Source: Paludibacteraceae bacterium (GTDB lineage: Bacteria > Bacteroidota > Bacteroidia > Bacteroidales > Paludibacteraceae). From it: 49,586 nucleotides of DNA. Under the pieces are notes generated by a model. The model saw only the letters and a program-made list of their open reading frames with translations. It was not told the DNA's origin and made no database searches. Below, one piece after another: positions 4,401 through 33,820 of this stretch. The position numbers and the translations under genes were made by a program. Numbering within the stretch: the stretch's first letter is position 1; each line of letters starts with the position of its first letter. The DNA lies in assembly GCA_017625155.1 (NCBI GenBank), contig JAGALP010000005.1, positions 1 through 49,586 on the forward strand, read 5' to 3'.

Positions 4401-6221
4401 TCAATTTTGTTTGTGTTGAGATAACCATTTGACAATGTTTTCTTTGTAGGTCAAAGAATCCTCTAACTGATAATACTTCACCCAATCTGTTTCTTTTGTT
4501 GTATTTTGTACTAATCCTATAAGTCCGTCAAGGTATCTATCTTTATTCCACGTTGTTTGTAACTCTATAAGACCATTACCTGCGTTTCCATTCCATAATG
4601 CAAACAATAGTAAGCATGTGAATTGTCCTATTGGATTCCCAGTATTCAGTCTGTCGAAAAGGTTGGGATCATTTGTAAATGAAAAACGAGACCGATTATT
4701 GAAATCCGAATACCAATCTTTTACAATAATGTATGTTCTTAATGCGTCTTCAAGGTTATTTGGAATCAAATACCACTTGAAAGGCATACATTGACTATAT
4801 TTGAGTGCATAATTAAGTGAATTGAAATTGTTGATTCCTATTAAATATGCGCAACCTAGATAATGTATTGCGTAATATAGACTTTGGGCACTGTTAATTT
4901 TATCAATTATTGGGCATTCTCCTGGGATTTCTGTATGTTTGTGATATTTTCTAGAATAGAAGTTACAAGCCCTTTGCCAATATTTTGGGAAAATTTCATC
5001 ATTAGAGCCGTTTATACATTTTACCATTGAATGCCACATAAACTCTATAGTCTCATATGACAATTCGTATTGTATTTTGTGTATTTCTCTCTCTGGCTCT
5101 CCGTATTTTCGTAGAACAGGAAGATGGGCTTCAAGTAGAGTGTTTAGAAATACCATTGCTTCATTTTGATATCTGATATCTTTTTGTTCAATAGCCCAAT
5201 CTAAACAAGCATATACAAAGTTATAATAACAATTAGTATAGTGTTTAGTGTTCTCTATTATGATAGAAGCAGTTCTGCTTTTTTCTTCCCAAAATCTGTC
5301 TATCTTTTTGCGAGCAGGGAAGTCTTCGCGAAATAATACATAGATGCGTGAAATTGCCACATACGGTTGTGTGGAGTCATTATCATATTCAGAAATAATG
5401 CGTAGTTTTTTTAAACGTTCACTTTCTTCTTTACTGCCGTATTGGAGAGGAACACATATACTTGCGTCAAAATAATATGGAGGCCTGTGCATTTTTACTA
5501 TATCTTCCTTTATGATTTCCACGAGATTACTGGGGGTCATAAAGGCTACGATTTTCCATATTAGAACCAAAAGAGATATGACTAAAACAATAGTTGCTAT
5601 GTAAAGTAAGAACATTGATAGATTGTTCCAAAAGATTGAGTGGGAAATGAAAAAATAGCAACATAACCAGCATGCAGATAACCCCAAAGAAATATATAGG
5701 GAGTATTTAAAGATCTTTAATTCTTTTCTTTTTTGAAAAATAGTTACTATATAATTATTTTGGTATCTTACACTCAAATTGTGCATAACATTGATGATAA
5801 CAGGAAATGCAATTGCCATAATGCTGATTATTGTTCCAATTGCAACAGATGTTGCAACTCCAATGTCATCTTTCTCATGGTGTAGTTTTAAGTATTTTGC
5901 TATAACAGCAAATATATCTGTGAAAAAGTATAGAGCAAGTAAGCCGCCTACAACAGAAAGAACAAAACACGACCAATAAATAACATTCTTGTGTACAGAT
6001 AGCCAATGCATTATGATTGTGTAAAATCTCCTAGTCCATTTGAGGACATTGCCAAAGAACACTTTTATTTTTTTATGTGCAAAATATATGTAATAACATA
6101 GCATGATAAAACCAGCAAAGCAATATCCAAAAGTTGAGAATATACATATACCTCCCACCCATAGTCCGTATGTGAAGGCAATGATACAAAGGAATATTAT
6201 TACAGCATAAAAAATATTCAT
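4401..6221 (-). CDS. Multi-pass membrane protein of unknown function
   Basis: I do not recognise this protein. It has 606 residues from the ATG chosen here. The N-terminal 240 residues carry about six hydrophobic segments (for example FYAVIIFLCIIAFTYGLW and FLLYIATIVLVISLLVLIW), with an intervening charged loop. The remaining 360 residues look cytoplasmic and mostly helical, rich in Trp, Tyr and Asn. An in-frame TTG at 6260 would add 13 residues, but the promoter box at 6273-6280 would leave that start almost no leader, so ATG 6221 is preferred. It is divergent from the kinase-HNH-methylase cassette and shares its low GC, so it may belong to the same acquired island. Confidence 0.8.
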   Translation of the reverse strand: MNIFYAVIIFLCIIAFTYGLWVGGICIFSTFGYCFAGFIMLCYYIYFAHKKIKVFFGNVLKWTRRFYTIIMHWLSVHKNVIYWSCFVLSVVGGLLALYFFTDIFAVIAKYLKLHHEKDDIGVATSVAIGTIISIMAIAFPVIINVMHNLSVRYQNNYIVTIFQKRKELKIFKYSLYISLGLSACWLCCYFFISHSIFWNNLSMFLLYIATIVLVISLLVLIWKIVAFMTPSNLVEIIKEDIVKMHRPPYYFDASICVPLQYGSKEESERLKKLRIISEYDNDSTQPYVAISRIYVLFREDFPARKKIDRFWEEKSRTASIIIENTKHYTNCYYNFVYACLDWAIEQKDIRYQNEAMVFLNTLLEAHLPVLRKYGEPEREIHKIQYELSYETIEFMWHSMVKCINGSNDEIFPKYWQRACNFYSRKYHKHTEIPGECPIIDKINSAQSLYYAIHYLGCAYLIGINNFNSLNYALKYSQCMPFKWYLIPNNLEDALRTYIIVKDWYSDFNNRSRFSFTNDPNLFDRLNTGNPIGQFTCLLLFALWNGNAGNGLIELQTTWNKDRYLDGLIGLVQNTTKETDWVKYYQLEDSLTYKENIVKWLSQHKQN

Positions 6222-6272
6222 CGTGTAATTATGATAAATGGTTACTAATGTTGTTGACAATTAAATTCGCTA

Positions 6273-6280: not shown

Positions 6281-6551
6281 CAACAAAAATTTCAAATAAC
6301 CAGAGACTTTGCAATTATTTTCTTCATTAGGGATTCCTTTACTATACTAACTCATTGCTCCTATGATTCCCCTATGTCTGTAATCTTTATTGGAGCATGT
6401 ATGCCTATATGTCTAATAGCGATAGGTGTTTTGCAGGGTCAATGACGAAATAAATTGCAATCATCGGTAAATTAAAAATGGGGAAAGGATGTAAAATAAC
6501 CGTTTTTTTTGTGTGTTAAGAGGCTATTTTGTTAGAAAATTTTATTTTCTA

Positions 6552-6583
6552 TTTGTATAATTCAATTTTTTTTTGTAATTTTG
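6552..6583 (+). promoter_or_regulatory. Promoter of the kinase-receiver-HNH-methylase cassette
   Basis: TTTG at 6552-6555, a 20-nt spacer and TAATTTTG at 6576-6583 match the Bacteroidota promoter exactly, 30 nt before the first ATG. The 353-nt divergent gap (6261-6613) holds this promoter and the opposing one; I see nothing else in it. Confidence 0.85.
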
Positions 6584-6613
6584 CAGCGCTAATTGTAAAT
6601 GTTTTTTTGAGTT

Positions 6614-8911
6614 ATGGAAATTCCTTTTTCGGTATCAGCAAGAACAGCAAAACTTATAGGATTGGAAAACTTCTCCAACCCAGAGGGTGCTATTATCGAA
6701 CTTGTTAAAAATACCTACGATGCAGATTCTAAGTATTGTTTTATCTTATTTAATGAGGACGAGGAGATACCAAGTATATACATATTGGACTTTGGTTGTG
6801 GTATGACAGCAGATACCATTATCACAAAATGGATGTGTATAGGAACAGATGATAAGTTATACAATGAGTACTCAGAGAACGGACGTGTAAAGTCTGGCGC
6901 AAAAGGCATTGGTCGTTTTGCCTTGAATAGATTAGGACAAGTATCAAAAATGTGGACATATACTGAGAATGGAGATGGACATGTGTGGGACGTTGATTGG
7001 CGCGAATTTGATACTCCGCATGCTAATGTTTCTGATGTCAAAGCAACTTTGGAAGAAATCTCCTTTAGTGGCATATTGAAAGAAGTAGAATCAGTATTGA
7101 GCTATTTTGATTTATCGGACAAGGTTACGTTTCAACATGGAACGCTATTAAAAATTTCATTGTTAAATGATGTTTGGGATGAGAGAATTATTCAAAAATT
7201 ATATGAGAATTTACAAGGGTTAATACCGCCATTTGATATTCCTGCTTTCGCAATATTTTTACACTCTACCGTTTCCCCCAATGAGTATGGTAAGATTACG
7301 GGAAGTGCTGAAGCGGATTATGATTATAAGATTGTCGCGCAATATGGAGGGGGGAATTCTGGTTCGCTGGAAGTTGACATTACAAGAAACGAACTGGATG
7401 TTCAAAGACTGAGAGAAGAATATGCTGCACTTTTCGAAATGCCAGAAATGAGCGAGTTTCCTTATACATTAGATGTCTTTGAGCAAAAGACATTTCATAT
7501 TAAGAAAAAACTCTCTGAATTAAAAATCCCCAACAAGCAGAAATTGGAATTATTGCAAAATGAATTAGGAAAATTTAAGTTTACATTCTATTTTGCTAAA
7601 AATTCTATTAATGATACAAGAGGAGAAGGAGATATTTCTAAGTTCCCGTATAAACCAATTTCATCAAATAGACGGAAATGGTTGAAGCAAAATATGGGAG
7701 TGAAAATATTTAGGGATAATTTTAGAGTTCGCCCTTATGGCGAATATGGTAATGACTGGTTGAGGTTGGGGGATCGATATACTACAAATCCAAGCGGTGC
7801 AGGACAACGTTTGGGTGGATACTATATCCGTAGAAATCAAATTGTGGGTGCTGTAGAAATTTCCAGAATAGATAATAAGAAATTAGAAGATAAATCAAGT
7901 CGAGAAGGACTGCAGGAGAATGAGGTATTTGATTTGTTTAAGGATATTTTAATTGGAATTATTGAATTGTTCGAGCGGGATAGGAATCATATAATGTATC
8001 ATTTAAGTCAATTGTATGATAAGAATAATCCCAAAGGCAAAACAAAAAAAGAAGCGGAGGCGGCTACAAAGTCTGGATACACAGAAGAAAATTATCAAAA
8101 GATAGTAGCTGGATATAATACAATTAAACAGCAGTTAGAAGAAAATGAAGAAGAATTGAGTCTTATTAGAAATTTGGCAAGTACTGGATTAGTAATTACT
8201 TCGTTTTCGCATGAATTAAGGAATATTCGTGCATTGCTTCAATCTCGTTATTTGGACATTAAAGAAGCACTCGAAAATATCATTCCTAATGAGGATTTGA
8301 TACAACGTGGTATTAATCCATATGAGAATCCTTATAACATGATAGAGGATTTAGGTATACAAGACCAAAAAATTAGAGGTTGGTTGGAGTTCTCATTGAA
8401 CTCAATAAGGCGAGATAAACGTAAGTCAGGAATCAGTAATCTAGAAACATATTTTTCTTCTTTTAAGGATACATGGAAATCTGTTCTTCAAGAACTTAAT
8501 ATAGAAATGGTAATTACCGGTTTCTCTGATGTAATGAATGTGAAAATGTTTCAAATAGATTTAGATACGATTTTTAATAATTTACTATCTAATTCAATAT
8601 ATGCTATTAAAGAAACAAAACGCAGTACTAATCGGTTCATATATATATATGGTGAGGTAATAGGTGATATAGTGCAGATATCATTTGTTGACACAGGTAT
8701 TGGACTAGCATCAGAGTACAAGACACATCCATATGATATCTTTAACGCATTCGAATCTTCGAAAGTAGATGAAGATGGGAACAAAGTAGGAACCGGATTG
8801 GGCTTATATATTACCAAAGCAACTATTGATAAATACGAAGGTGAAATTCGGATAATTACAAATAATATATCTGGATTTGGACTTAATGTAAGATTAAATA
8901 TAAATAAATGA
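6614..8911 (+). CDS. Double-GHKL sensor histidine kinase with MORC/Hsp90-like ATPase domain
   Basis: This 765-residue protein has two ATP-binding GHKL modules. The N-terminal one has an N box ELVKNTYDAD (N33), G1 LDFGCGM (D59) and G2 SGAKGIGRFA (94-103), as in MutL/MORC/Hsp90-like ATPases. A transducer-like region and a Lys/Glu-rich coiled coil (about 465-520) follow. The second part is a kinase core: H-box SFSHELRN with the likely phospho-acceptor His533, N box FNNLLSNS (654-661), G1 VDTGIGL (D693) and G2 GTGLGLY (726-732). No transmembrane segment is seen, so it is cytoplasmic. The next gene, 1 nt downstream, encodes a receiver protein, its probable partner. Low-GC codon use suggests transfer. 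Confidence 0.9.
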   Translation: MEIPFSVSARTAKLIGLENFSNPEGAIIELVKNTYDADSKYCFILFNEDEEIPSIYILDFGCGMTADTIITKWMCIGTDDKLYNEYSENGRVKSGAKGIGRFALNRLGQVSKMWTYTENGDGHVWDVDWREFDTPHANVSDVKATLEEISFSGILKEVESVLSYFDLSDKVTFQHGTLLKISLLNDVWDERIIQKLYENLQGLIPPFDIPAFAIFLHSTVSPNEYGKITGSAEADYDYKIVAQYGGGNSGSLEVDITRNELDVQRLREEYAALFEMPEMSEFPYTLDVFEQKTFHIKKKLSELKIPNKQKLELLQNELGKFKFTFYFAKNSINDTRGEGDISKFPYKPISSNRRKWLKQNMGVKIFRDNFRVRPYGEYGNDWLRLGDRYTTNPSGAGQRLGGYYIRRNQIVGAVEISRIDNKKLEDKSSREGLQENEVFDLFKDILIGIIELFERDRNHIMYHLSQLYDKNNPKGKTKKEAEAATKSGYTEENYQKIVAGYNTIKQQLEENEEELSLIRNLASTGLVITSFSHELRNIRALLQSRYLDIKEALENIIPNEDLIQRGINPYENPYNMIEDLGIQDQKIRGWLEFSLNSIRRDKRKSGISNLETYFSSFKDTWKSVLQELNIEMVITGFSDVMNVKMFQIDLDTIFNNLLSNSIYAIKETKRSTNRFIYIYGEVIGDIVQISFVDTGIGLASEYKTHPYDIFNAFESSKVDEDGNKVGTGLGLYITKATIDKYEGEIRIITNNISGFGLNVRLNINK

Positions 8912-8912
8912 T

Positions 8913-9569
8913 ATGATAACAATCGGTTATTTGGACGAGGCGAATAATCCTCGTTATACTTTTAACAGGGTGTTTAAGCAAGATTTTAATGTTAAAATGC
9001 TTGATAACCCTGAGTTAATATCAACCCCGGATGATTTAATAAATCAAATTGAAGAAATGAATCTGGACGTGTTAGCTGTTGATTATAAATTAGCAGACGG
9101 AGGTTGGCTCCCATATAATGGAGATGAGGTCGTAAAGGTTATATGGGAGAAAAAAAGATATTTCCCCGTGTTTATGCTAACCTCTTACCCCTCCGATGCA
9201 ATGTCAAAAATGGAAAATGTTTTCTTGGTAAGGGACAAAAGTATAATCACAGATGCGAAGAATTCAAGTTCTGCCGAGAATCCGGAACAATCTCTGGATT
9301 TCTTGAAGGAGCAAATAAGAAAATCTGTCGAAAATTATAAAATAATCATTACAAAGAGAGAGAAACGAGCCCGTGAAATAGAAGAAAAACAAGTGCAAGG
9401 ACTATCTTTTGAGGAAGAGAATGAGCTATTAGAATTGCATATGGAACTGCATGCCATAGACCCGAAAGCGAATCCCATTACTCCTGCGGATTTACAAACA
9501 ACGGCTGTGAAGAAATTGCAAGAAATGGTAGTTGCTTCTCGTGATATATTGAAACAGTTATCAAAATAA
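8913..9569 (+). CDS. Stand-alone response-regulator receiver protein
   Basis: This 218-residue protein keeps the receiver signature: an acidic pair D8/E9 after the first strand, phospho-acceptor D57 in LAVDYKL, T90 in FMLTSYP and K109 in LVRDKS. Residues 61-75 form a longer loop than usual. After about residue 130 there is no DNA-binding domain, only a charged helical region (KREKRAREIEEKQ) that could be a coiled coil or a docking surface. Its gene begins 1 nt after the kinase stop codon. The likely role is to pass the kinase's phosphorylation state to the HNH or methylase protein. Receiver assignment is firm; the target is inference. Confidence 0.82.
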   Translation: MITIGYLDEANNPRYTFNRVFKQDFNVKMLDNPELISTPDDLINQIEEMNLDVLAVDYKLADGGWLPYNGDEVVKVIWEKKRYFPVFMLTSYPSDAMSKMENVFLVRDKSIITDAKNSSSAENPEQSLDFLKEQIRKSVENYKIIITKREKRAREIEEKQVQGLSFEEENELLELHMELHAIDPKANPITPADLQTTAVKKLQEMVVASRDILKQLSK

Positions 9570-9578
9570 TTCCAAATT

Positions 9579-10160
9579 ATGGCGAACAGATTAAGGAAAC
9601 AGACTCCAAAGCGTAGAACAGATGTCCCTACAAGAACTGATTATCGAAAATATCGAGAAGAGTTAAGAGCAGATTTTGATTGTCATTGTGGATATTGCGG
9701 AGATAGAGATTGGCCAAGGAAAGAACATTTTGAGATAGATCATTTTGTTCCTAAAGAGCAACTAAAAATCATACGTGAAAACGATTACTCAAATTTGGTG
9801 TATGCGTGTCGATCCTGTAATAATGCGAAACGTGCAAAGTGGCCAACAAATGATGAAAGGCAACCTAATAATGGGAAATGTGGCTGGATAGATCCATGTG
9901 ACAATTTGTATGATGAACAGTTCGAACGAACAGAGACAGGAGCAATTACACCTAAGACGGAGATAGGTGATTGGATGTATGAGAACTTAAAACTATGGAA
10001 GAAGCAGCATGAAGTATTATGGAATTATGAACAATTGGAAATAATAACCGAGGAGATTAAACCAAAAATTCAAGATTGTGATGATATTGAAATATCAAGA
10101 AAACTTAATGCATTGCTGATAGAACAACAGGAATGGTTGAAGAAATTATATGATGAATGA
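9579..10160 (+). CDS. HNH endonuclease
   Basis: This 193-residue protein carries a zinc-stabilised HNH fold near its N-terminus: CxxC (C37, C40), the catalytic strand FEIDHFVPK with D54/H55, N72 in YSNLVYAC, and a second CxxC (C77, C80) followed by NNAK. All residues expected for metal binding and catalysis appear present. The C-terminal half (about 120-193) is helical and charged. The motif layout resembles the HNH partners found in retron and Septu-type defence operons. The upstream neighbour is the receiver gene (9 nt) and the downstream methylase overlaps it by 4 nt. It is the probable DNA-cutting effector of the cassette. Confidence 0.9.
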   Translation: MANRLRKQTPKRRTDVPTRTDYRKYREELRADFDCHCGYCGDRDWPRKEHFEIDHFVPKEQLKIIRENDYSNLVYACRSCNNAKRAKWPTNDERQPNNGKCGWIDPCDNLYDEQFERTETGAITPKTEIGDWMYENLKLWKKQHEVLWNYEQLEIITEEIKPKIQDCDDIEISRKLNALLIEQQEWLKKLYDE

Positions 10161-12004
10161 ATGCATATATATTAAGTTTCCTTAAAAATAATATTTCTTC
10201 TGATACAAGGTTTATTAATAGATTGTTTGTAACTGCAGTTATCACTAGAAACAAATGGGTAGTAAAGAAGAACTCTTTATTGTCCTCTTTGATAATTGAT
10301 AAGGCTCATCCTGATTATCAGGTGTTAACTCAATTTATAGATGTCTTAGAGAGATATAACTTCCAATATACTTTTGATGATTTAATTAGTTTGTTTGAGT
10401 TTGTTGTTTCCCCCCATGATAAGATTGTAAATGGAGCTGTCTATACTCCCCAATATATTAGAGATTATATAGAAGACTATTGTTGGTCAGTATATAAAGG
10501 AAATATAGACGTTTGCAGAATTATTGACTTGTCATGTGGGTGTGGCGGTTTTCTTGTAGATATGGCAAGAAAAATGAAAGAAAGATCAAACAAAACATAC
10601 AAACAGATTTTTTCTGAGAATATATATGGAATAGATGTCCAAGGCTATGCTATAGAACGAACCAAGATACTATTATCTCTTCTGGCATTGAGCATGGGAG
10701 AAGATGATGAATTTTCTTATAATCTCTGGTCGGCAAATACACTAAATTTCAATTTTCAAGAAAAGTTTAGACCTTATCATGGCTTTGATATTATAATTGG
10801 AAATCCACCATATGTTTGTTCTCGAAACTTACCACAAGAAACAAAAGAAATCATAAAAAAGTGGTCTGTATGTAGTACTGGTCATCCGGATTTATATATA
10901 CCATTCTTTCAAGTCGCTATTGAGAATCTTTCATCAAATGGTGTTATGGGCTATATAACAATGAATAGTTTCTTGAAAAGTGTAAATGGGCGTGCTTTAC
11001 GTGAATATTTCAATACACTTCATAAATCAATACACATTATTGATTTTCGAGGTCGGCAAATATTTCAGTCTAAAAACACATATACATGTTTGTTTTTTGT
11101 GGAGAATAAGAAATCGGATTATCTGTATTACGGCGTATATGATGGCCTATTCGAGAATTTTAAATATAATAGGTTTGAATATAGAGGATTAGATAGTAAA
11201 AAGGGATGGGACTTAAATGAAACAACTAAAATACACCAACTAGAGAGTATCGGAAAACCCATTCGGAAATTTGCACAATCTCGTCATGGACTTGCGACAT
11301 TATGCAATAAGGTATATATTTTTGCCCCAGTTCGAACAACAAAGAGGTTTTATATTCTTCGGCAAAATGGAGTGGATTATCCAATAGAAAAGACGATATG
11401 TATGGATATAGTCAATCCTAATAAATTTAATTCAGAAGTAGTATTTGCCGATGTTATTAGAAAAATTATTTTCCCATATGAAAAAAATTATGAAGGGAAG
11501 ATGACGATAATGCCCGAGCATAAACTACAAGAGCTCTATCCATATACATATCGTTACCTATTGACACAGAAATTGCAATTAGCAGCACGTGATAAAGGGA
11601 AGGGGAAAAATTATGATATATGGTATCAGTTTGGGCGAACGCAGTCTCTAAATCTGCCTTCTCTTAAGTTGTTTGTCCCTAAAATTGCTAATAGAGCTCC
11701 TCGCTGTATACTTATAGATAATCCAAATTTGTACTTTTATAATGGCTTTGCTTTCGTGGGAGAAAATGTTGAGACTCTATGTGTTTTGCAGAAAATATTA
11801 GAGTCCTCTATATTTTGGGAATATATTGTGGCAAATAGTAAACCATATTCATCGGATTATTATTCTATAAGCGGTTCATATATTTATAATTTTGGGATAC
11901 ACAATTTTAGTACAGAAGAAAAGCAATACTTACTAACCGAGAATAGAAAAGAAAAAATAGATAGTTTTCTTCGCAGGATCTATTTCCCAGAAAAAGCAGA
12001 ATGA
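10157..12004 (+). CDS. Eco57I/TaqI-like N6-adenine DNA methyltransferase
   Basis: This protein of 615 residues has SAM-binding motif I DLSCGCGGF (124-132) and catalytic motif IV NPPY (216-219), the N6-adenine type. A region of about 350 residues downstream fits a target-recognition domain like those of gamma-class methylases. No PD-(D/E)XK nuclease motif is seen at the N-terminus, so it does not look like a fused type IIG enzyme; the HNH protein would supply cleavage. Its ATG overlaps the HNH stop codon (ATGA), which implies coupled translation. A terminator follows. It should modify host DNA at a site I cannot predict. Confidence 0.9.
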   Translation: MNAYILSFLKNNISSDTRFINRLFVTAVITRNKWVVKKNSLLSSLIIDKAHPDYQVLTQFIDVLERYNFQYTFDDLISLFEFVVSPHDKIVNGAVYTPQYIRDYIEDYCWSVYKGNIDVCRIIDLSCGCGGFLVDMARKMKERSNKTYKQIFSENIYGIDVQGYAIERTKILLSLLALSMGEDDEFSYNLWSANTLNFNFQEKFRPYHGFDIIIGNPPYVCSRNLPQETKEIIKKWSVCSTGHPDLYIPFFQVAIENLSSNGVMGYITMNSFLKSVNGRALREYFNTLHKSIHIIDFRGRQIFQSKNTYTCLFFVENKKSDYLYYGVYDGLFENFKYNRFEYRGLDSKKGWDLNETTKIHQLESIGKPIRKFAQSRHGLATLCNKVYIFAPVRTTKRFYILRQNGVDYPIEKTICMDIVNPNKFNSEVVFADVIRKIIFPYEKNYEGKMTIMPEHKLQELYPYTYRYLLTQKLQLAARDKGKGKNYDIWYQFGRTQSLNLPSLKLFVPKIANRAPRCILIDNPNLYFYNGFAFVGENVETLCVLQKILESSIFWEYIVANSKPYSSDYYSISGSYIYNFGIHNFSTEEKQYLLTENRKEKIDSFLRRIYFPEKAE

Positions 12005-12029
12005 TGTATTTAACTATATTTTATATGTG

Positions 12030-12056
12030 AGTGCCTTATTGTAGGCACTTTTTTAT
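12030..12056 (+). terminator. Intrinsic terminator of the methylase cassette
   Basis: A 7-bp stem AGTGCCT/AGGCACT with a 6-nt loop is followed by a run of T residues, 25 nt after the methylase stop codon. It closes the four-gene cassette. Confidence 0.88.
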
Positions 12057-19619: not shown

Positions 19620-22600
19620 ATGCGTATGAAAAAGTTTTTATCGCTTGTTGCGTTGTTCTTGTGTCTATCATTAGGATTGCGCGCAGAGAGTGGCACCTGT
19701 GGGGCTAATCTCAATTGGGAGTATGCAAATGGTACTCTCACTATTACTGGTTCTGGTCCGATGACTAATTTTAATGCTGCAGGATCTCAACCTTGGGCTT
19801 CTGTTCGCGGAAGTATTGTACAACTGGTTTTGCCAGAAGAGCTGACAGTCATAGGAGATTATGCGTTTGCCTATTGTAGTAAACTGCGCATGGTGACAAT
19901 TCCGAACCAAGTTACTCGTATCGGTAGGGAGGCATTTCGGGAGTGTCCTGCGCTTAGTAGAGTGACCTTTGCAGAAGGTTCAAAAATGCAAACTATAGGT
20001 GTAGGTGCATTCCTCAGTTGTACTGCGCTGGCAAGTATGCAATTGCCTGGGGGGTTGGTGTATATAGAGAATGGTGCTTTTAATAATTGCAGCAAACTTA
20101 GTGCGATTGATATTCCAGCCAGTGTGCTTTCAGTGGGGGAATCTGCATTCATCTATTGTTCCGATTTGAGCAAGGTGACGCTACACAATGGTACGCAAAC
20201 CATTGGTCAGAGCGCATTTTACGATTGCAGAAACTTGAGTTCTGTGACTCTGCCTGAATCGCTAGTAAGTATAGGTCAAAGTGCTTTTAGTTCGTGTACT
20301 TCGTTGACATCTGTGGTTGTTCCTAAAAATATCAAGACTATTGAAACGGGAACTTTCAGAGCTTGTTCGTCTTTGACTAATATTGTGCTCCCAGATAGCT
20401 TGGTGACTATTGGTGAAAGAGCATTCCAAGGTTGTGGTATGAGCCAGATTCGTATTCCAGACAATGTGTCGGTTTTTGGCTCGTATGCTTTTAGAGAATG
20501 TGTGAATTTGACTTCCGTAGCCATTCCAAAATCTATGGCACATATTGCATATGGTGCTTTTTATGGGTGCTCTAATATGACCTCCGTGACTATTCCTGAA
20601 GGAGTGACAACCATAGAGCACAACGCTTTCCATCTTTGCAATTTGTTGAGCCTTAGTTTGCCACAATCGCTTACCACAATCGCTGGCGAAGGAAGCTATA
20701 CGGGTGCATTTTCGGATAATAAGAATCTATCCGTAGTGGTGATTCCTGACAATGTGACGACTGTAGTAGGAGGAGCATTTGCAGGTTGTACTAGTTTGAA
20801 GACCATTGTGTTTGGTGCTAATGTAACTACTTTGGGCGCGGGTATGCTCCGCGGCTGTACGTCGCTAACAGAAGTGAGTCTGCCTAAGAAGCTAACGATC
20901 ATTCCTAATAGTTGTTTTTTAGGTTGTCCTGCATTGTCTAAGGTGATTTTGCCAGAGGGACTTACCACTATTGAGGGTTATGCTTTTCAAGACTGCTCAT
21001 CCCTGCAAACGATTCAGTTGCCTAGTACGATTCGCGTCATGACCCAAGCTTTTGCAGGTTGTACGGGTTTGGTGGAGGTAGAGATACCTGAGGGCGTGAG
21101 TATCTTGGATAATACATTTATAAATTGTCCTAACCTGAGTAAGGTAACATTACCTTCTAGTTTGACCACCATTGGTACGCAAGCCTTTGCGTCTTGCCGC
21201 AATTTGGTATCGCTGCATATACCAAGTGGTGTGACGAATATTGCAAATAGTGCTTTTTATGGGTGCATTGCGTTGAGCAATATTGTATTGCCAAGCGGCT
21301 TGACAACTTTGGGAGATTATGCTTTCCAAGATTGTCGTGCACTCAGCAAGATTGTATTGCCTAATAAGCTGACAAGTGTTCCTAATCAGGCATTTGTAAA
21401 TTGTCAGTCGCTTGCGGATGTAACTCTTCCAGTGGGATTGAAATCGATTGGTGTGAGTGCGTTCAACGGATGTGGCTCCCTCAATACGATTCAACTGCCT
21501 CAAGGATTGACCTCGATTGGAGAGCGTGCCTTCTGTGAATGTGATGGACTGACCTCTTTGACCATTCCAAGTACGGTGATGTCTTTAGGTAGTTCTATAT
21601 TGTCAAACAGCGATGGTATCACGGCTATTAATCTGTTGCCATTGATGCCACCGACGATATCTAGCAAGACCTTTTCTGGTGCACCTGCTAATATGGCCAT
21701 CAATGTGTTGTGCGGCAACAAGGAGTTCTATGTGGAAGATGCCAACTGGGCATCGTACAAGGATCGTATGTACGAGATACCTGCAGCAGTACTCAGCGTG
21801 AAAGCCAGCGACAACCGCATGGGTGAGGTGATCGTGGTAGCACCAAACACATGTACCAGCGACGAGGCAACTATCCAGGCTATCCCTCGCGAGGGTTGTG
21901 AGTTCGTAGCATGGAACGACGGTAATACAGAGAATCCACGCGTGGTGACAGTGACGGAGGATGTGACTTATACGGCTACTTTTGGTGCAATCAGCACCTA
22001 CCAACTGACGGTGAAGTGTGATGCTAAGCAAGGTCATGTGGCAGGCGCAGGAGCTTATTACCCAGGTGAGGAAGCGGTATTGGAAGTGACTGCATTCGCA
22101 GGCTATCGTTTCTGGAAATGGGCTGACGGCGTGACAGATAATCCACGTAGCGTAGTAATGGATCAAGATACCACTTTGGAAGTGTTGTTTGTGGTGGGTG
22201 ACTTCTGTGGCGATAATATTCTCTATACCTTTACCAATGATACGTTGGCATTGAAAGGAACAGGCGAGATGTGGAACCAGAGTGCGTATGGATGGAATGT
22301 GTATGCGGACGAAGTGGAGGCAATCAGTTTGTCGGAAGGTATTACCAGTCTGGGTACCAATGCGTTTATGGACTTGATGTTTGTGACGGATGTGACTATT
22401 CCTAGGAGCGTGAAGACGATTCATAAGCGTGCGTTTGAGAATTGCCGTAGTTTGACTAGTGTGGAGTTCGCGCAAAATAGCCAACTGAAGACGATTGACC
22501 ATTGGGCATTCTACGAGTGTATCAATCTGCAAACGATGGATATTCCAGAAGGTGTGACAACGATTGGCAATGGTGCTTTCTATGGTTGCGCATACTTGGA

Positions 22601-22952
22601 GTCGCTTGTATTGCCTTCTTCATTAGAGAGTATAGCAGACAATGGTTTTGCGTTGTGCGCGAAGTTGGGTGAGATTACTGTTCATGCGACGGAACCTCCA
22701 GTAGTAGATAGCAAGACATTTGAGAATGTGAGTCGTAGTATCCCTGTGCACGTGCCTTATGGCATGGGTCCGAAATATCGTGCTGCTGCGGTTTGGCAGG
22801 AGTTTGATATTCGTGACAAAGCAGATGTGGTGACCGGCGTAGATAATGTGGATGTAGATACTATCTCTATAGAGAAAGTCATCCGTAATGGTCAAGTGAT
22901 GATTGTACGTGATGGTAAGATGTACAATATGCTTGGTCAAGAAATGAAGTAA
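19620..22952 (+). CDS. BspA-like leucine-rich-repeat surface protein with InlB-type B repeats
   Basis: This 1,110-residue protein has a signal peptide (MKKFLSLVALFLCLSLGLRA; ATG at 19620 or 19626). LRR_5 repeats of the BspA type (IGxxAFxxCxxLxxVxLPxxL) fill about 50-700. Two divergent InlB B-repeats follow at about 722-791 and 795-862 (FVAWNDGNTENPR, FWKWADGVTDNPR). A second short LRR block spans about 895-1010, opened by a repeat of the N-terminal GTGEM-type motif. The tail, IRNGQVMIVRDGKMYNMLGQ, resembles shortened T9SS-type ends. Such proteins act as adhesins. Its promoter is nearly identical to that of the HTH-SPFH-caspase operon. Confidence 0.92.
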   Translation: MRMKKFLSLVALFLCLSLGLRAESGTCGANLNWEYANGTLTITGSGPMTNFNAAGSQPWASVRGSIVQLVLPEELTVIGDYAFAYCSKLRMVTIPNQVTRIGREAFRECPALSRVTFAEGSKMQTIGVGAFLSCTALASMQLPGGLVYIENGAFNNCSKLSAIDIPASVLSVGESAFIYCSDLSKVTLHNGTQTIGQSAFYDCRNLSSVTLPESLVSIGQSAFSSCTSLTSVVVPKNIKTIETGTFRACSSLTNIVLPDSLVTIGERAFQGCGMSQIRIPDNVSVFGSYAFRECVNLTSVAIPKSMAHIAYGAFYGCSNMTSVTIPEGVTTIEHNAFHLCNLLSLSLPQSLTTIAGEGSYTGAFSDNKNLSVVVIPDNVTTVVGGAFAGCTSLKTIVFGANVTTLGAGMLRGCTSLTEVSLPKKLTIIPNSCFLGCPALSKVILPEGLTTIEGYAFQDCSSLQTIQLPSTIRVMTQAFAGCTGLVEVEIPEGVSILDNTFINCPNLSKVTLPSSLTTIGTQAFASCRNLVSLHIPSGVTNIANSAFYGCIALSNIVLPSGLTTLGDYAFQDCRALSKIVLPNKLTSVPNQAFVNCQSLADVTLPVGLKSIGVSAFNGCGSLNTIQLPQGLTSIGERAFCECDGLTSLTIPSTVMSLGSSILSNSDGITAINLLPLMPPTISSKTFSGAPANMAINVLCGNKEFYVEDANWASYKDRMYEIPAAVLSVKASDNRMGEVIVVAPNTCTSDEATIQAIPREGCEFVAWNDGNTENPRVVTVTEDVTYTATFGAISTYQLTVKCDAKQGHVAGAGAYYPGEEAVLEVTAFAGYRFWKWADGVTDNPRSVVMDQDTTLEVLFVVGDFCGDNILYTFTNDTLALKGTGEMWNQSAYGWNVYADEVEAISLSEGITSLGTNAFMDLMFVTDVTIPRSVKTIHKRAFENCRSLTSVEFAQNSQLKTIDHWAFYECINLQTMDIPEGVTTIGNGAFYGCAYLESLVLPSSLESIADNGFALCAKLGEITVHATEPPVVDSKTFENVSRSIPVHVPYGMGPKYRAAAVWQEFDIRDKADVVTGVDNVDVDTISIEKVIRNGQVMIVRDGKMYNMLGQEMK

Positions 22953-30726: not shown

Positions 30727-31595
30727 GGAAGGTAGTATTAATTACCATATTATTGTTATGCTCACTAGGGACATTGATTGCTCAATCTGTCATTAATGCC
30801 TCTGGTGAGTACACGTATATAGCTCCATCAAATGTGTCTATAGAAGAGGCAAAACAAATAGCATTAGAACGTGCGCGTTTGCAATGTTTAGCAGATTGCT
30901 TTGGTACTATAGTTAATCAGGCTCATACTACTATGATGCGTGCTGTTGATGGGGAAAGTGAGGTTTCTCACTTCTTGCTTGGAGAATCAGAAGTTAAGGG
31001 AGAATGGTTAGGTGATTTGAAACAACCAGTATATAAAATCACTTATGATGAAGTTACAGGTTCTAATATAGTCCATGTTAAGGTATTTGGAAAAGTACGA
31101 GAGATTAGAAAGCCCAAAATAGATGTTTCTGTTCAGATATTATGCAATGGCATCACTCCACGTCATGAAAGAGAGAGGTTTTATGAAGGAGACCAGTTGT
31201 TTTTATCATTTACATCCCCTGTGGCAGGATATTTGTGCGTTTATCTTGTGGATGAAGATGCTAATGCTTTTTGTTTATTACCATATTCATCCAGTTCACA
31301 AGGTGTACATAGTGTCGCTGCAAATAAAAAGCATGTGTTTTTCTCTAACGAACAATCTGATGGTAATGAACTCGTAGATGAATATGCTATGAGTTGTATT
31401 CATGATGGAGAAATGAATATGTTTTACATTGTATATTCTCCAAATACATTTTCTAAAGCGATAGATCAATTATCGTCTTCGCTCCAGCAACTCAAATTGA
31501 AACAACTGCAAGATTGGCTATTAGATATTCAATCAAAGGATGCAGATCTTCAGGTAATTCGTAAAACAATTATTATTAATAAATTACGTCAATGA
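30723..31595 (+). CDS. DUF4384 domain-containing secreted protein
   Basis: This 290-residue protein has a signal peptide (MRKVVLITILLLCSLGTLIA), an N-terminal LPP20-like segment (about 25-125) and a DUF4384 domain (about 150-250), seen as YEGDQLFLSFTSPVAGYLC, LVDEDANAFCLLPY and FYIVYSPN. DUF4384 domains often sit in or beside bacterial caspase-like proteins, and here the next gene, overlapping by 4 nt, encodes a caspase. The two probably act as a pair outside the cytoplasm. Confidence 0.85.
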   Translation: MRKVVLITILLLCSLGTLIAQSVINASGEYTYIAPSNVSIEEAKQIALERARLQCLADCFGTIVNQAHTTMMRAVDGESEVSHFLLGESEVKGEWLGDLKQPVYKITYDEVTGSNIVHVKVFGKVREIRKPKIDVSVQILCNGITPRHERERFYEGDQLFLSFTSPVAGYLCVYLVDEDANAFCLLPYSSSSQGVHSVAANKKHVFFSNEQSDGNELVDEYAMSCIHDGEMNMFYIVYSPNTFSKAIDQLSSSLQQLKLKQLQDWLLDIQSKDADLQVIRKTIIINKLRQ

Positions 31596-33820
31596 ATGCT
31601 AGACCGTTAATACCTCTATTGCTATTTATTACCTTATTCGTAGAGGTGACGTTTGCTATGCTAACTGAACAGCAACAAGCAATTGAACAATCATTCTGGT
31701 CGCGGTATTCTGATGTACAATATTATCCAGAATATGGAGGCTGGTATTTATTAACTTCTCATCAGAATAATCATAAAACATACGCTATGGCTGATAACAT
31801 GGGTAATATTTTAGTATCTGGAGCGATTGATTATAAACGATATGATGGATATATACGGTTTCACTTGTTAGATTTAGCAAAAAAGCAGTTACATGACCAG
31901 TGGCAACTAGAGATGAAGGAATATGAGTCAAGATATGCAAACTATCGCGAAATTGAAAATGAATACGAACAAAAGTTAAATGCGTATAACATTAAACTAG
32001 AGGTCGCTAAACATCATGCAAGCGAATTGTATGAGCAAGAGATTACAACTGCACGACGCAAGGCACAAGCAGAGCATGAGTGTCAATCTAGCAATAGCAG
32101 TTCTGGTGGAATATTTGGAGGAATGTTGAAGGCAATAGGTTCTGTGGTTGTGCAGGCTGCTGCAACAGAAAATATTCGCTATGATGCCATACTAAAAGAA
32201 ATACTTGTGAGAGAAGATTTGTTGACGCCACCTAAGAAACCGTATAATCCCGAACCATTAAAGCCAGAAGAGCCTGAAACTGGATATTATTGGCAGTCTT
32301 TTACATATCGTCAACCATGTCCTTATAGTGAAATTAATTATGATGGTATAGCTATATCTGATGGGTATGCTGACGTGAAATTGGATGGTAGGTATGGGCT
32401 TGTGAATGCTCGGTTGGATGAGGTTATTCCTTGTATTAGTAAAAATAAGGTGTATCAAACAAAGCTTCATGAAAATAATATATTAGTGTCTGTCAATGGT
32501 AAGTATGGTATTTTATCTTCTATTACCGACCAATTAATATTATCGTGTGAATATGATGAACTCCAATATCGGGAGGGGTGTTTTTTGTGTAGACGTAATA
32601 ACTCCTGGGGAGTTTGTAGCAAGAATGGTGCAGTGCTTATTCCATCTATTTATTCGTCAATAGGTTTGGCATCAAATGTTTTTATCGCTACTTTGTCTAA
32701 CGGCACATCAGGTTTAATCGCATTTAATGGACAAGAGGTATTCCCTTTTGTATCATTTGAGATAGTAGAACTTCTACCTGAATTTATATTGATTCGTGAT
32801 TCACAAGATCGATATGGAGCGATAAACTACCAGGGAAAGTTAATTGTTCCTGTAAAAAATAAAAAGGATATAGTTAGCAGAAAAGTTGCAGCATATGGTA
32901 AGAAGGTTGATTTGACCAACGAGAACTTTACAACTTTATCCAATATTTCTGACTCTTATAATGCCTTCATACATCGTTTAAACCAATCTACTACTGAGTT
33001 TGGTAAGCAATTGACTGAATCTAATCACAATGTTGTGGGTAATTCCGATGTGGATATCCAAATTCCAACAACCTCTAGAATACAAGAAAATACTTTTGCA
33101 GTGATAATTGCGAATAAGAATTATGATGAAGCTCCAGATGTTGATTTTGCTCTCAATGATGGCTATTTCTTCAAAGAGTATTGTGTCAAAACGTTAGGTA
33201 TACCGTCTGAGAATATACGATTTAAGGAGGATGCTACATACAATAATATTCGTGAAGTAGTTAGTTGGATTCGCGAGATTTCCAATAATAAACTATATAA
33301 GGATAATGCTCGATTTGTCGTTTACTACTCAGGGCATGGTGTCCCTGATGAGATGACCAAAAGCATGTATTTACTTCCTACAGATGGAGTAGCAATGAAT
33401 ATAGCAACTACAGGGTATAAAGTAAGTGAGCTATTTGATGCTTTATCTGAAACTTCTTCAGAAAGTGTAGTATTCTTAGACGCATGTTTTAGTGGATTTA
33501 CCAAATCAGGGTCAGCTCTCGCATCTACAAAGGGTGTAGTTAAAATTAATACAGGTATCCCCAAGGGCAATGTGGTGGTTTTTAGTGCTTCTTCTAGTAA
33601 TGAAGTGGCGCATCAATATGAAGCAAAATCCCATGGCCTTTTTACCTATTACTTACTAAAAAAAATGCAGGAAACAAAGGGAGATGTTAGTTTAGGTGAT
33701 TTATTTCAATACATAGAAAAACAGGTGGTTCGAACGTCTCTCACAGTGATTCGTAAATCACAAACCCCCACAGTTATAGCAGGGACTACCGTTCGGATGT
33801 GGGAAGAAAAACCACTATAA
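31592..33820 (+). CDS. Secreted WG-repeat protein with caspase (peptidase C14) domain
   Basis: This 742-residue protein has a signal peptide (about 1-24), a coiled coil (105-165), a Pro/Glu-rich linker (about 210-235) and WG-type beta repeats (about 255-430; YGLVNARLDEVIPC, YGILSSITDQLIL). The C-terminal caspase domain covers about 500-735. The catalytic pair is intact: His582 in YYSGHGVP and Cys632 in LDACFSG. It would be a cysteine protease active outside the cytoplasm, with substrate and trigger unknown. It is the last gene of the operon and overlaps the DUF4384 gene by 4 nt. Confidence 0.9.
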   Translation: MNARPLIPLLLFITLFVEVTFAMLTEQQQAIEQSFWSRYSDVQYYPEYGGWYLLTSHQNNHKTYAMADNMGNILVSGAIDYKRYDGYIRFHLLDLAKKQLHDQWQLEMKEYESRYANYREIENEYEQKLNAYNIKLEVAKHHASELYEQEITTARRKAQAEHECQSSNSSSGGIFGGMLKAIGSVVVQAAATENIRYDAILKEILVREDLLTPPKKPYNPEPLKPEEPETGYYWQSFTYRQPCPYSEINYDGIAISDGYADVKLDGRYGLVNARLDEVIPCISKNKVYQTKLHENNILVSVNGKYGILSSITDQLILSCEYDELQYREGCFLCRRNNSWGVCSKNGAVLIPSIYSSIGLASNVFIATLSNGTSGLIAFNGQEVFPFVSFEIVELLPEFILIRDSQDRYGAINYQGKLIVPVKNKKDIVSRKVAAYGKKVDLTNENFTTLSNISDSYNAFIHRLNQSTTEFGKQLTESNHNVVGNSDVDIQIPTTSRIQENTFAVIIANKNYDEAPDVDFALNDGYFFKEYCVKTLGIPSENIRFKEDATYNNIREVVSWIREISNNKLYKDNARFVVYYSGHGVPDEMTKSMYLLPTDGVAMNIATTGYKVSELFDALSETSSESVVFLDACFSGFTKSGSALASTKGVVKINTGIPKGNVVVFSASSSNEVAHQYEAKSHGLFTYYLLKKMQETKGDVSLGDLFQYIEKQVVRTSLTVIRKSQTPTVIAGTTVRMWEEKPL

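Follow-up and report, generated by a model that had tools for sequence, protein, structure and literature searches.

The window analysed here is a stretch of 49,586 nucleotides from a Paludibacteraceae bacterium (GenBank assembly GCA_017625155.1, contig JAGALP010000005.1), in which four tightly packed open reading frames (ORFs), K, R, H and M, span positions 6614–12004 (Table 1). They are separated by gaps of 1, 9 and −4 nt, and the ORF coordinates confirm the operon layout that an earlier note on this DNA had proposed. The four genes are also, as that note had it, poorer in GC than their surroundings (K 0.338, R 0.365, H 0.359 and M 0.320, compared to 0.465 in the left flank and 0.426 in the right). 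The low-GC stretch begins before K, at a divergent ORF (4401–6260, GC 0.325) that we considered as a fifth component and set aside, as it has no relative among the compared loci. No controller gene lies upstream of K in the window, and neither direct repeats nor tRNA genes provide convincing island boundaries at the locus.

Table 1 Features of the K-R-H-M locus, with positions in the window
Feature	Position	Strand	Basis
Possible Bacteroidota-type promoter (TTTG, ~20 nt, TAATTTTG), 5′ of K	6551–6585	+	Read by eye from the sequence; weak
K: MORC-like GHKL ATPase and histidine kinase, 765 aa	6614–8911	+	Pfam, Foldseek, conserved residues
R: stand-alone receiver, 218 aa	8913–9569	+	AlphaFold2, Foldseek, profile match, conserved residues
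H: small HNH nuclease, 193 aa, distantly PtuB-like	9579–10160	+	Pfam, PADLOC, conserved residues
M: Eco57I-type N6-adenine DNA methyltransferase, 615 aa, type MA	10157–12004	+	Pfam, PADLOC, NPPY motif
Intrinsic-terminator-like hairpin with T tail, 3′ of M	12029–12050	+	Motif scan

The promoter was read against the Bacteroidota-type consensus. Sigma-70-like sites are as common in shuffled sequence as in the region (31.6 and 31, respectively), so the consensus promoter that the earlier note had offered as evidence counts for nothing. Its single terminator fares somewhat better: the hairpin that starts 24 nt past M is plausible as a real terminator, but such sites occur at chance level (4 observed, 3.7 in shuffles). 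At the DNA level, the nearest relative (L022) resembles the window from one base 5′ of the K start codon to position 11925, within M, and the four genes thus behave as a single unit. In an empty-site search across 41 genomes of the family, the best full-length matches of the two flanking genes outside their own genome were 51% and 40% identical, with short pieces of up to 98%.

Domain composition and conserved active sites

In K, Pfam recognises an HATPase_c_3 domain (residues 23–138) and an HATPase_c domain (648–751), and both were found in all eight K proteins tested. The protein runs from HATPase_c_3 and a middle domain through a helical stretch to a DHp segment with H533 and the HATPase_c kinase domain. 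When its structural model was searched with Foldseek, ranks 1–15 were all MORC2 or MORC3, with TM-scores of only 0.27–0.30 over K, followed by histidine kinases, Topo VI-B and Hsp90; the model thus supports a predicted fold that is MORC-like in one half and a histidine kinase in the other. Among the 78 complete loci described below, the kinase residues H533, N656 and N660 and the G boxes are kept in all, D693 and G697 in 77, and residue 534 is a glutamate in 66 loci, an aspartate in 11 and a histidine in one. The N-terminal ATPase motifs (E29, N33, D36, D59 and G95-K97-G98-G100) are likewise kept in 78 of 78, a constancy that is partly built in because the relatives were retrieved through K motifs.

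R matches Pfam receiver families only below threshold, and 27 of 73 R proteins match the classical Response_reg. Its AlphaFold2 model (pLDDT 91) has the alternating beta-alpha fold of a receiver followed by long C-terminal helices, Foldseek matches it to receivers, and a profile match links it to the PhoP receiver (1.3e-5). The pocket residues D57, T90 and K109 are kept in 78 of 78 loci, D8 in 75 and E9 in 74, which supports R as an active-looking receiver. No DNA-binding domain was recognised in the model or by Foldseek and, for a receiver with a helical tail, transcriptional output is unlikely. As the sole query against genome contigs R returned no matches, probably owing to its divergence.

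An HNH domain (Pfam, 7.7e-11) is all that is recognised in the 193 residues of H, which matches PtuB in PADLOC (3.4e-12) and, weakly, retron-associated HNH proteins (TIGR02646, 6.5e-6, below its cut-off; Retron Ec83 HNH, E = 0.037). Its HNH residues D54-H55, N72 and N81 are kept in all 78 complete loci. The three residues singled out in the earlier note (H533, D57 and H55) were correctly named, and each is kept in 78 of 78. M matches Eco57I in Pfam (2.4e-28) and PDLC03335 in PADLOC (3.3e-96), with a catalytic NPPY at residues 216–219. All 38 loci labelled MA, three with M upstream of K among them, and 39 of the 40 MB loci have an NPPY-type motif.

Conservation of the operon among relatives

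The comparison set comprised 89 non-redundant loci, the window included, each with a close relative of K. Eighty of them, from genome contigs, are the best 80 of 459 K relatives retrieved via the motifs GAKGIGRF and GA-IEL-KN, and conservation of gene order is therefore conditional on K similarity. K, R, H and M are contiguous in 79 of the 89, mostly from Bacteroidota, with median gaps of 2, −4 and −4 nt, and R adjoins K in 88. Three further loci carry M just upstream of K instead of after H, and in one (L066) K-R-H is present but no NPPY-type methylase was found within its 20 kb. For close K relatives, the kinase, receiver, HNH nuclease and adenine methylase thus form one conserved operon, as the earlier note proposed, and the dispersal of the genes that it named as a refutation is not seen; more distant K relatives have different partner genes. 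The distribution is patchy: at 1e-40, K was found in 5 of 395 genomes of the phylum, its own included.

The 78 complete loci leave out L015, L044, L050, L091 and L095, together with L025, L026, L059, L066, L070 and L071, in which genes are absent. L039 and L067 repeat the contigs of L017 and L014 and are therefore absent from the 89; L043 and L044 are from one species and were both kept in it, and the short duplicates L001–L004 and L006–L012 were not counted. The three loci with M upstream (L030, L088 and L101) carry the MA label by a low best score only; they are included in the 78-locus counts and excluded from the 75-locus trees, the partial correlations and the shared-DNA pair counts.

Small regulator-like ORFs lie just 5′ of K in 28 of the 89 loci. 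One checked member of family C1 (20 loci) has an XRE-type match in the PDB, and family C2 has no PDB match. We rejected a universal fifth gene, given that count and that the remaining small upstream ORFs look spurious by eye.

K, R and H evolve as a set and are replaced beside M

Across the 78 loci, pairwise distances correlate strongly between K and R (0.89), K and H (0.77) and R and H (0.79), and those of M, within its types, at 0.22–0.52. K-R-H evolve as a set to which M is loosely coupled, a point that is new here. The partial correlation of H with M given K, an indirect test of shared specificity, is 0.02 in MA (35 loci) and −0.21 in MB (40 loci), and in five pairs of loci whose M proteins are 81–93% identical, the H proteins are only 29–35% identical.

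Shared DNA points the same way. In 179 pairs M is shared and the K body is not, and of these R is common to none, H to 11 and the upstream 200 nt to 61; in 81 pairs the K body is shared and M is not, and of these R is common to 63, H to 55 and the upstream region to none. By these comparisons, the K body, R and H have been replaced beside a common M and upstream region. A set of five chosen pairs had suggested that the K start also belongs to the frame that stays with M, which fails in the all-pair count, as K starts are similar in 98 of the 179 pairs with a common M and in 777 of 1,447 pairs that share neither.

The type of M also changes at least nine times on the 75-locus K-R-H tree, all forced by starred branches, which speaks for loose coupling. 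M nevertheless keeps a tie to the core: randomly labelled tips need roughly 25 changes, 69 of 78 loci agree in M type with their nearest neighbour by K, and 68 pairs have both M and the K body in common.

As H tracks K and R, and the core is replaced while M stays, a classical sequence-specific partnership between H and M is improbable. The earlier note had read the HNH nuclease and N6-adenine methylase as a restriction pair, which in the classical sense is not supported, since H follows K-R rather than M. From module exchange, and from that only, we deduce that M would set the specificity of K-R-H.

Relation to known systems

At E ≤ 0.1, the PADLOC hits of K are limited to two weak REase_II models and R has none, so that no named system fits the set; we also found no published name for the family. 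The earlier note's view that the system is unnamed stands in this respect, but the arrangement is less new than it implied. The general idea of a kinase (paraMORC) and receiver forming a two-component-like pair tied to restriction–modification (R-M) genes is already in print (Bellieny-Rabelo et al. 2021, PMC8011034).

The closest comparison is with the HEF_HK (PF19191) and Response_reg_2 (PF19192) pairs, in which a soluble, R-M-linked kinase made of HATPase_c_3, DHp and HATPase_c adjoins, as in K-R, a receiver with a conserved acidic pocket. K can be aligned with a kinase of that branch over 706 columns at 21% identity (hhalign 100%, 1.8e-39). Whereas K has 765 aa and R stands alone, in four Bacteroidota loci of the branch the kinase has 967–1001 aa and the receiver belongs to a longer protein (528–575 aa) whose C-terminal part is large. 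The sole neighbour checked there (L110) is a C5 methylase, in place of the HNH nuclease and N6 methylase of K-R-H-M. None of eight K proteins matches PF19191 at E ≤ 0.1 (a positive-control kinase in L111 does, at 7.1e-20), none of 73 R proteins matches PF19192 at E ≤ 0.01 (four positive controls do), the R profile has no convincing match to four Response_reg_2 proteins, and the profile match between the two receiver branches, R and the sister receivers, is weak (13.6%). Judged by these profiles, the family falls outside both Pfam domains.

Septu PtuAB shares with our locus a PtuB-like nuclease but has PtuA, whose models K does not match, where K-R-H-M has a MORC-kinase and receiver. Detocs relies on phosphorelay-type signalling that ends in an effector; its parts appear to differ from the present set, in which the effector is an HNH nuclease and which includes a methylase and a MORC half. 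K and R matched no Detocs model in PADLOC, a release that may not hold any.

GHKL and S5-type paraMORC ATPases beside HNH and methylase genes were described in R-M operons by Iyer, Abhiman and Aravind (2008, PMC2292703). K may be or include their paraMORC1, which is reported to carry a distinct extension at its C terminus and to neighbour HNH genes. The available part of that text describes helicases in many of the operons and no histidine-kinase half, and the word ‘receiver’ does not occur in it; K-R-H-M has both a kinase half and a receiver. In VcSduA, a Shedu nuclease, the available text reports that an N-terminal GHKL domain is needed for phage defence and is thought to control the nuclease, changes in either abolishing defence (PMC12137116). 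The nuclease there is of the PD-(D/E)xK type and fused in one protein, and that text describes neither phosphorelay nor methylase. In the legend to Fig. 6F of DefensePredictor (PMC13092281), HATPase and REC are among the domains keyed for predicted, unvalidated defence systems, a likeness at the level of the domain key.

Proposed mechanism and alternatives

We propose, with a probability of roughly 0.55, that K-R-H-M is an unnamed, mobile, R-M-like immune system in which a phosphorelay gates the nuclease and M marks self. M would methylate adenines at its own sites. K would be a cytoplasmic, ATP-dependent clamp of the MORC type that carries a complete kinase core. On meeting DNA whose state is wrong, because it lacks methylation or is foreign in some other way, K would close, autophosphorylate at H533 and hand the phosphate on to D57 in R; recognition of such DNA probably goes through M or involves M as a partner. 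Once phosphorylated, R could use its helical tail to release or recruit H, which has no recognised DNA-recognition domain and would either cut the invader or degrade nucleic acid generally. K-R-H would form one exchangeable sensor–switch–nuclease core, and M with the upstream control region the frame that fixes the methylation pattern.

More tentatively, and at somewhat less than even odds, the nuclease would lack sequence specificity of its own and be licensed by the His-Asp phosphorelay of the MORC clamp, and the core would be interchangeable between methylases, swapped by recombination inside the methylase/control-region frame so as to renew detection or evade phage inhibitors with the methylation pattern unchanged. 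Core exchange would show that detection and cutting can evolve apart from methylation specificity, the reverse of the swapping of recognition domains that is usual in R-M systems, and the core would be expected to work with a foreign M. If the gating is as proposed, the direct target of a two-component phosphorelay would be a nuclease rather than gene expression, and the operon would offer a tractable bacterial model for the MORC-type clamps that human chromatin proteins also have, with the signal read by phosphorylation.

An abortive-infection switch, in which K senses infection rather than methylation, the phosphorelay activates H to halt the cell through non-specific DNase or tRNase activity, and M only protects, modulates or is a passenger held by methylation addiction, seems unlikely to us. 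The distant resemblance of H to PtuB and its weaker one to retron-associated HNH proteins are in keeping with such a switch, as are the lack of H–M co-variation once K is accounted for and the locus (L066) in which no M was found; it sits poorly with an M that directly follows H in 79 of 89 loci, lies just upstream of K in three more, and is retained with its upstream region while the core is replaced.

We consider it improbable that the operon serves selfish or housekeeping DNA-state signalling, such as repair or plasmid stabilisation, instead of phage defence. GHKL and S5 proteins include MutL (PMC2292703, in its available part), and the neighbouring toxin–antitoxin genes of one plasmid-labelled copy (below) would suit stabilisation, but the patchy distribution of K, the low GC in the window and the mobile and defence genes among the neighbours of relatives argue against this. 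An ordinary type II pair, with H and M sharing a site and a two-component system tuning their expression or activity, is more doubtful still: an HNH nuclease and an N6 methylase do share one operon, and 28 of the 89 loci have small regulator-like genes 5′ of K, but the partial correlation of H with M is near zero or negative, H is only 29–35% identical in five pairs whose M is 81–93% identical, the HNH domain alone is recognised in H, and R has no recognised DNA-binding domain.

Neighbours, plasmids and phages

The earlier note had suggested looking for defence-island neighbours, and defence-gene families are indeed more frequent in the flanks sampled: a sample of genes flanking the relatives matched 154 PADLOC families, compared to 5 in a control sample (110 genes each; the counts are of families, not proteins). 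Copies lie on plasmid-labelled records of Bacteroides finegoldii and Salipiger, the former adjoining toxin–antitoxin genes; the Salipiger and Ensifer plasmid loci were retrieved later and are outside the 89. In 50,697 phage records R had no match at 1e-5, and K was found in two short records only, one of which (L119) belongs to the sister branch. Two IMG/VR contigs carry K-R-H with M after H or before K.

A contiguous four-gene set in the window and its relatives

The earlier note had described a candidate defence operon made of K (MORC-like ATPase and histidine kinase), R (receiver), H (HNH nuclease) and M (N6-adenine methylase). Coordinates and domains agree with one tight set of four open reading frames (ORFs) with gaps of 1, 9 and −4 nt, and the low GC content it reported is seen relative to both flanks; sites resembling its single promoter and terminator are present, but such sites occur only at chance frequency. 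By a simple hydropathy scan, none of K, R, H and M has a transmembrane stretch.

Coordinates and assignments of features in the window and in two relative loci
Feature	Coordinates	Strand	Description	Basis
K	6614-8911	+	Two GHKL ATPase domains	Domain search
R	8913-9569	+	Receiver	Profile match, AlphaFold model, Foldseek
H	9579-10160	+	HNH nuclease	Domain search
M	10157-12004	+	Eco57I-type N6 methylase	Domain search
DNA similarity	6613-11925		Confined to this range, window against nearest relative	
Protein divergent from K	4401-6260	−	619 aa, seven hydrophobic stretches, low GC	
Repeat protein	19620-22952		1110-aa BspA-type leucine-rich-repeat protein	
Caspase-domain protein	31592-33820		742 aa, Peptidase_C14, WG-repeat match	
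Long ORF	36139-45423	−	Single ORF, 3094 aa	
Interrupted H	L025:5700-6400		In-frame stop; uncultured Flavobacteriales	
ORF upstream of K	L075:8767-8970		Small, regulator-like	

Relatives were drawn from order and phylum genome samples, a Bacteroides finegoldii record labelled plasmid, a species-genome scan from which the best 80 of 459 K relatives were taken, and viral contigs, which contributed two. In the order and phylum sampling, own genome counted, R occurs in 4 of 295 genomes at 1e-5 and K in 5 of 395 at 1e-40. The genes are indeed kept together in other genomes: the set is well conserved, being contiguous as K–R–H–M in 79 of 89 non-redundant loci (window included), with R directly after K in 88. 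Contig ends interrupt four of the ten exceptions (loci L026, L059, L070 and L071); in L095 a split K precedes R, H and M in their usual order, the interrupted H of L025 is either a pseudogene or a sequence error, M lies upstream instead of after H in L030, L088 and L101, and no M was found at L066. A Deinococcus plasmid has the order M–K–R–H. By record titles, some of them of metagenome bins whose labels may be wrong, the set also occurs beyond Bacteroidota, for example in Paenibacillus, Methanolobus, Saccharibacteria, Campylobacterota and Rhodobacterales, and its lateral spread is therefore likely. Locus L038, labelled 'archaeon', clusters with Prevotellaceae and Bacteroides loci and is probably a mis-binned contig.

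K, R and H form one unit to which M is only loosely tied

Pairwise distances correlate strongly within the core (K–R r = 0.89, K–H 0.77, R–H 0.79). Those of M correlate with K, R and H at 0.30, 0.32 and 0.22 within one M type (MA, that of the window; 38 loci) and at 0.52, 0.47 and 0.35 within the other (MB; 40 loci), despite M being more conserved than R. With the three upstream-M loci removed, the partial correlation of H and M given K is 0.02 in MA (bootstrap −0.18 to 0.24) and −0.21 in MB (−0.35 to −0.05). The view of HNH nuclease and methylase as a restriction pair thus keeps their adjacency but loses their co-variation once K is accounted for. The data also speak against full independence of M from K–R–H: a quick K–R–H tree of 75 loci (LG+G4, with SH-aLRT as its sole support) needs nine M-type changes, all forced by starred branches, where a randomly labelled tree would need about 25, and in 69 of 78 cases a locus has the M type of its nearest neighbour by K. 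K–R–H is one unit, and M is only loosely tied to it.

Proposed exchange of the core within a frame that includes M

In five pairs of loci picked for contrast, protein identity is 81-93% for M, 35-40% for K and 29-35% for H. All five have M as their long shared DNA block (80-93% over 1562-1989 nt, beginning near the M start codon), with shorter shared blocks upstream of K or at the K start and, in three pairs, short ones within K, R or H. Among all pairs of loci with at least 300 nt upstream, which are not independent events, the upstream 200 nt are common in 61 of 179 pairs that share M and not the K body (R in 0, H in 11), in none of 81 that share the K body and not M (R in 63, H in 55), in 25 of 68 that share both and in 21 of 1447 that share neither. 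The first 120 nt of K are common in 98, 72, 63 and 777 pairs of these classes, respectively; as this similarity runs across all classes, it marks the K start as generally conserved. In 63 pairs, the median distance between the beginning of the shared M block and the M start codon is 7 nt. Our reading is that the upstream region and M are a frame, and that the K body, R and H are an exchangeable core.

In 28 of 89 loci a small regulator-like ORF directly precedes K; among the 9867 ORFs at other places in the loci there were 4 such hits. It belongs to family C1 in 20 loci (one a 233-aa protein) and to C2 in 8. The C1 member tested has PDB matches among XRE-type DNA-binding proteins, HipB for example; the one C2 member tested had no PDB match, and its assignment as helix-turn-helix was made by eye only. 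When the ORF is present at both loci of a pair, the two copies belong to one family in 42 of 44 pairs with M common and K not, 5 of 22 with K common and M not, and 90 of 167 with neither common; the family follows M rather than K–R–H. In the alphaproteobacterial L081, L092, L094 and L097, a helix-turn-helix ORF on the upstream side of K, excisionase-like by eye, overlaps the called K start.

Conserved active sites and a putative phosphorelay

All 78 complete loci retain the phospho-acceptor His, the N box, most G-box glycines and the N-terminal ATPase motifs of K, D57, T90 and K109 of R, and D54, H55, N72 and N81 of H. The constancy of the N-terminal motifs is partly built in because they doubled as search patterns, which H533 of K and the R and H residues did not. 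Exceptions among the examined residues are D8 (75/78), E9 (74/78), and D693 and G697 (77/78 each); position E534 of K is E in 66 loci, D in 11 and H in 1. C40 and C80 of H are both Cys in 55 of 78 loci and replaced together in 23 (T/V, T/I or S/V), which suggests a zinc site lost as a pair. All 38 MA-labelled loci (the three upstream-M loci counted) and 39 of 40 MB loci have an NPPY-type motif in M.

In the R model (pLDDT 91), long helices (124-162, 166-182 and 197-217) come after a receiver fold, and the Foldseek matches of the model are receivers. In the K model (pLDDT 82, pTM 0.61) domain packing is unsure; its top fifteen Foldseek matches are MORC2 and MORC3, at low whole-protein TM-scores (0.27-0.30), followed by histidine kinases, Topo VI-B and Hsp90. 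Profile comparison matches the second half of the K sequence to DHp-CA kinase structures (best 4.8e-11; 2c2a 3.6e-10).

The conserved phosphorelay residues argue that the signalling function is in use. Because no DNA-binding domain is recognised in R, its target is more likely a protein than a promoter, with H, encoded by the next gene, the obvious choice. Two sister branches carry the receiver as part of a larger protein, which also suggests that it acts on an effector; the C-terminal part, with a Cys-Asp-Cys/Ser motif, is a candidate new effector domain. In L110-L113, L115 and L119, the receiver or receiver-like proteins (by eye for L115 and L119) have 409-575 aa, commonly with C-terminal Cys-Asp-Cys (Cys-Asp-Ser in L112), and their C-terminal parts gave no convincing Pfam domain. 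Were H on its own to cut at the site of M, the two should co-vary, and with K controlled for they do not. A core working beside varied methylases must owe its specificity to M, to some general feature of foreign DNA or to a signal from the phage.

Relation to described systems

Bellieny-Rabelo et al. 2021 (PMC8011034) describe a kinase of the architecture HATPase_c_3 + HEF_HK + HATPase_c whose neighbour is a Response_reg_2 receiver, the pair being associated with type II restriction–modification (R–M) genes, and propose R–M control resembling a two-component system (TCS). K can be aligned with this HEF_HK-type kinase over 706 columns (hhalign 1.8e-39). Unlike in those pairs, Response_reg_2 is matched by none of 73 R and HEF_HK by none of 8 K, and R gave no convincing profile match to Response_reg_2 proteins. 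Iyer et al. 2008 (PMC2292703) report paraMORCs with HNH and methylases, and K may be their paraMORC1. DefensePredictor 2026 (PMC13092281) names HATPase + REC in the legend of a figure on unvalidated predictions, a likeness to K–R–H–M at the level of domain names. Searches of open-licence papers, bioRxiv not included, listed no name for K–R–H–M. The broad idea of TCS-like R–M control is already in print, and core exchange is new as far as we found; the exchange is a testable result, and the function of the system is a prediction.

Genomic surroundings

Among 110 of 264 genes beside relatives, 154 PADLOC families matched at 1e-10, compared with 5 for 110 of 171 control genes, counts in which one protein may match many families. 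Control genes were taken at two arbitrary sites per genome in nine genomes, only three of them known carriers, and defence-gene enrichment beside relatives is suggestive. Some copies also have mobile-element genes (TraG, resolvase, integrase, IS66) and toxin–antitoxin genes nearby.

In the window, the 619-aa protein divergent from K has no Pfam match and no relative in the loci compared. The caspase-domain gene belongs to a second stretch of low GC (31-34 kb, GC 0.34-0.37) and is possibly another conflict or cell-death gene; the 290-aa protein beside it matches DUF4384 below threshold.
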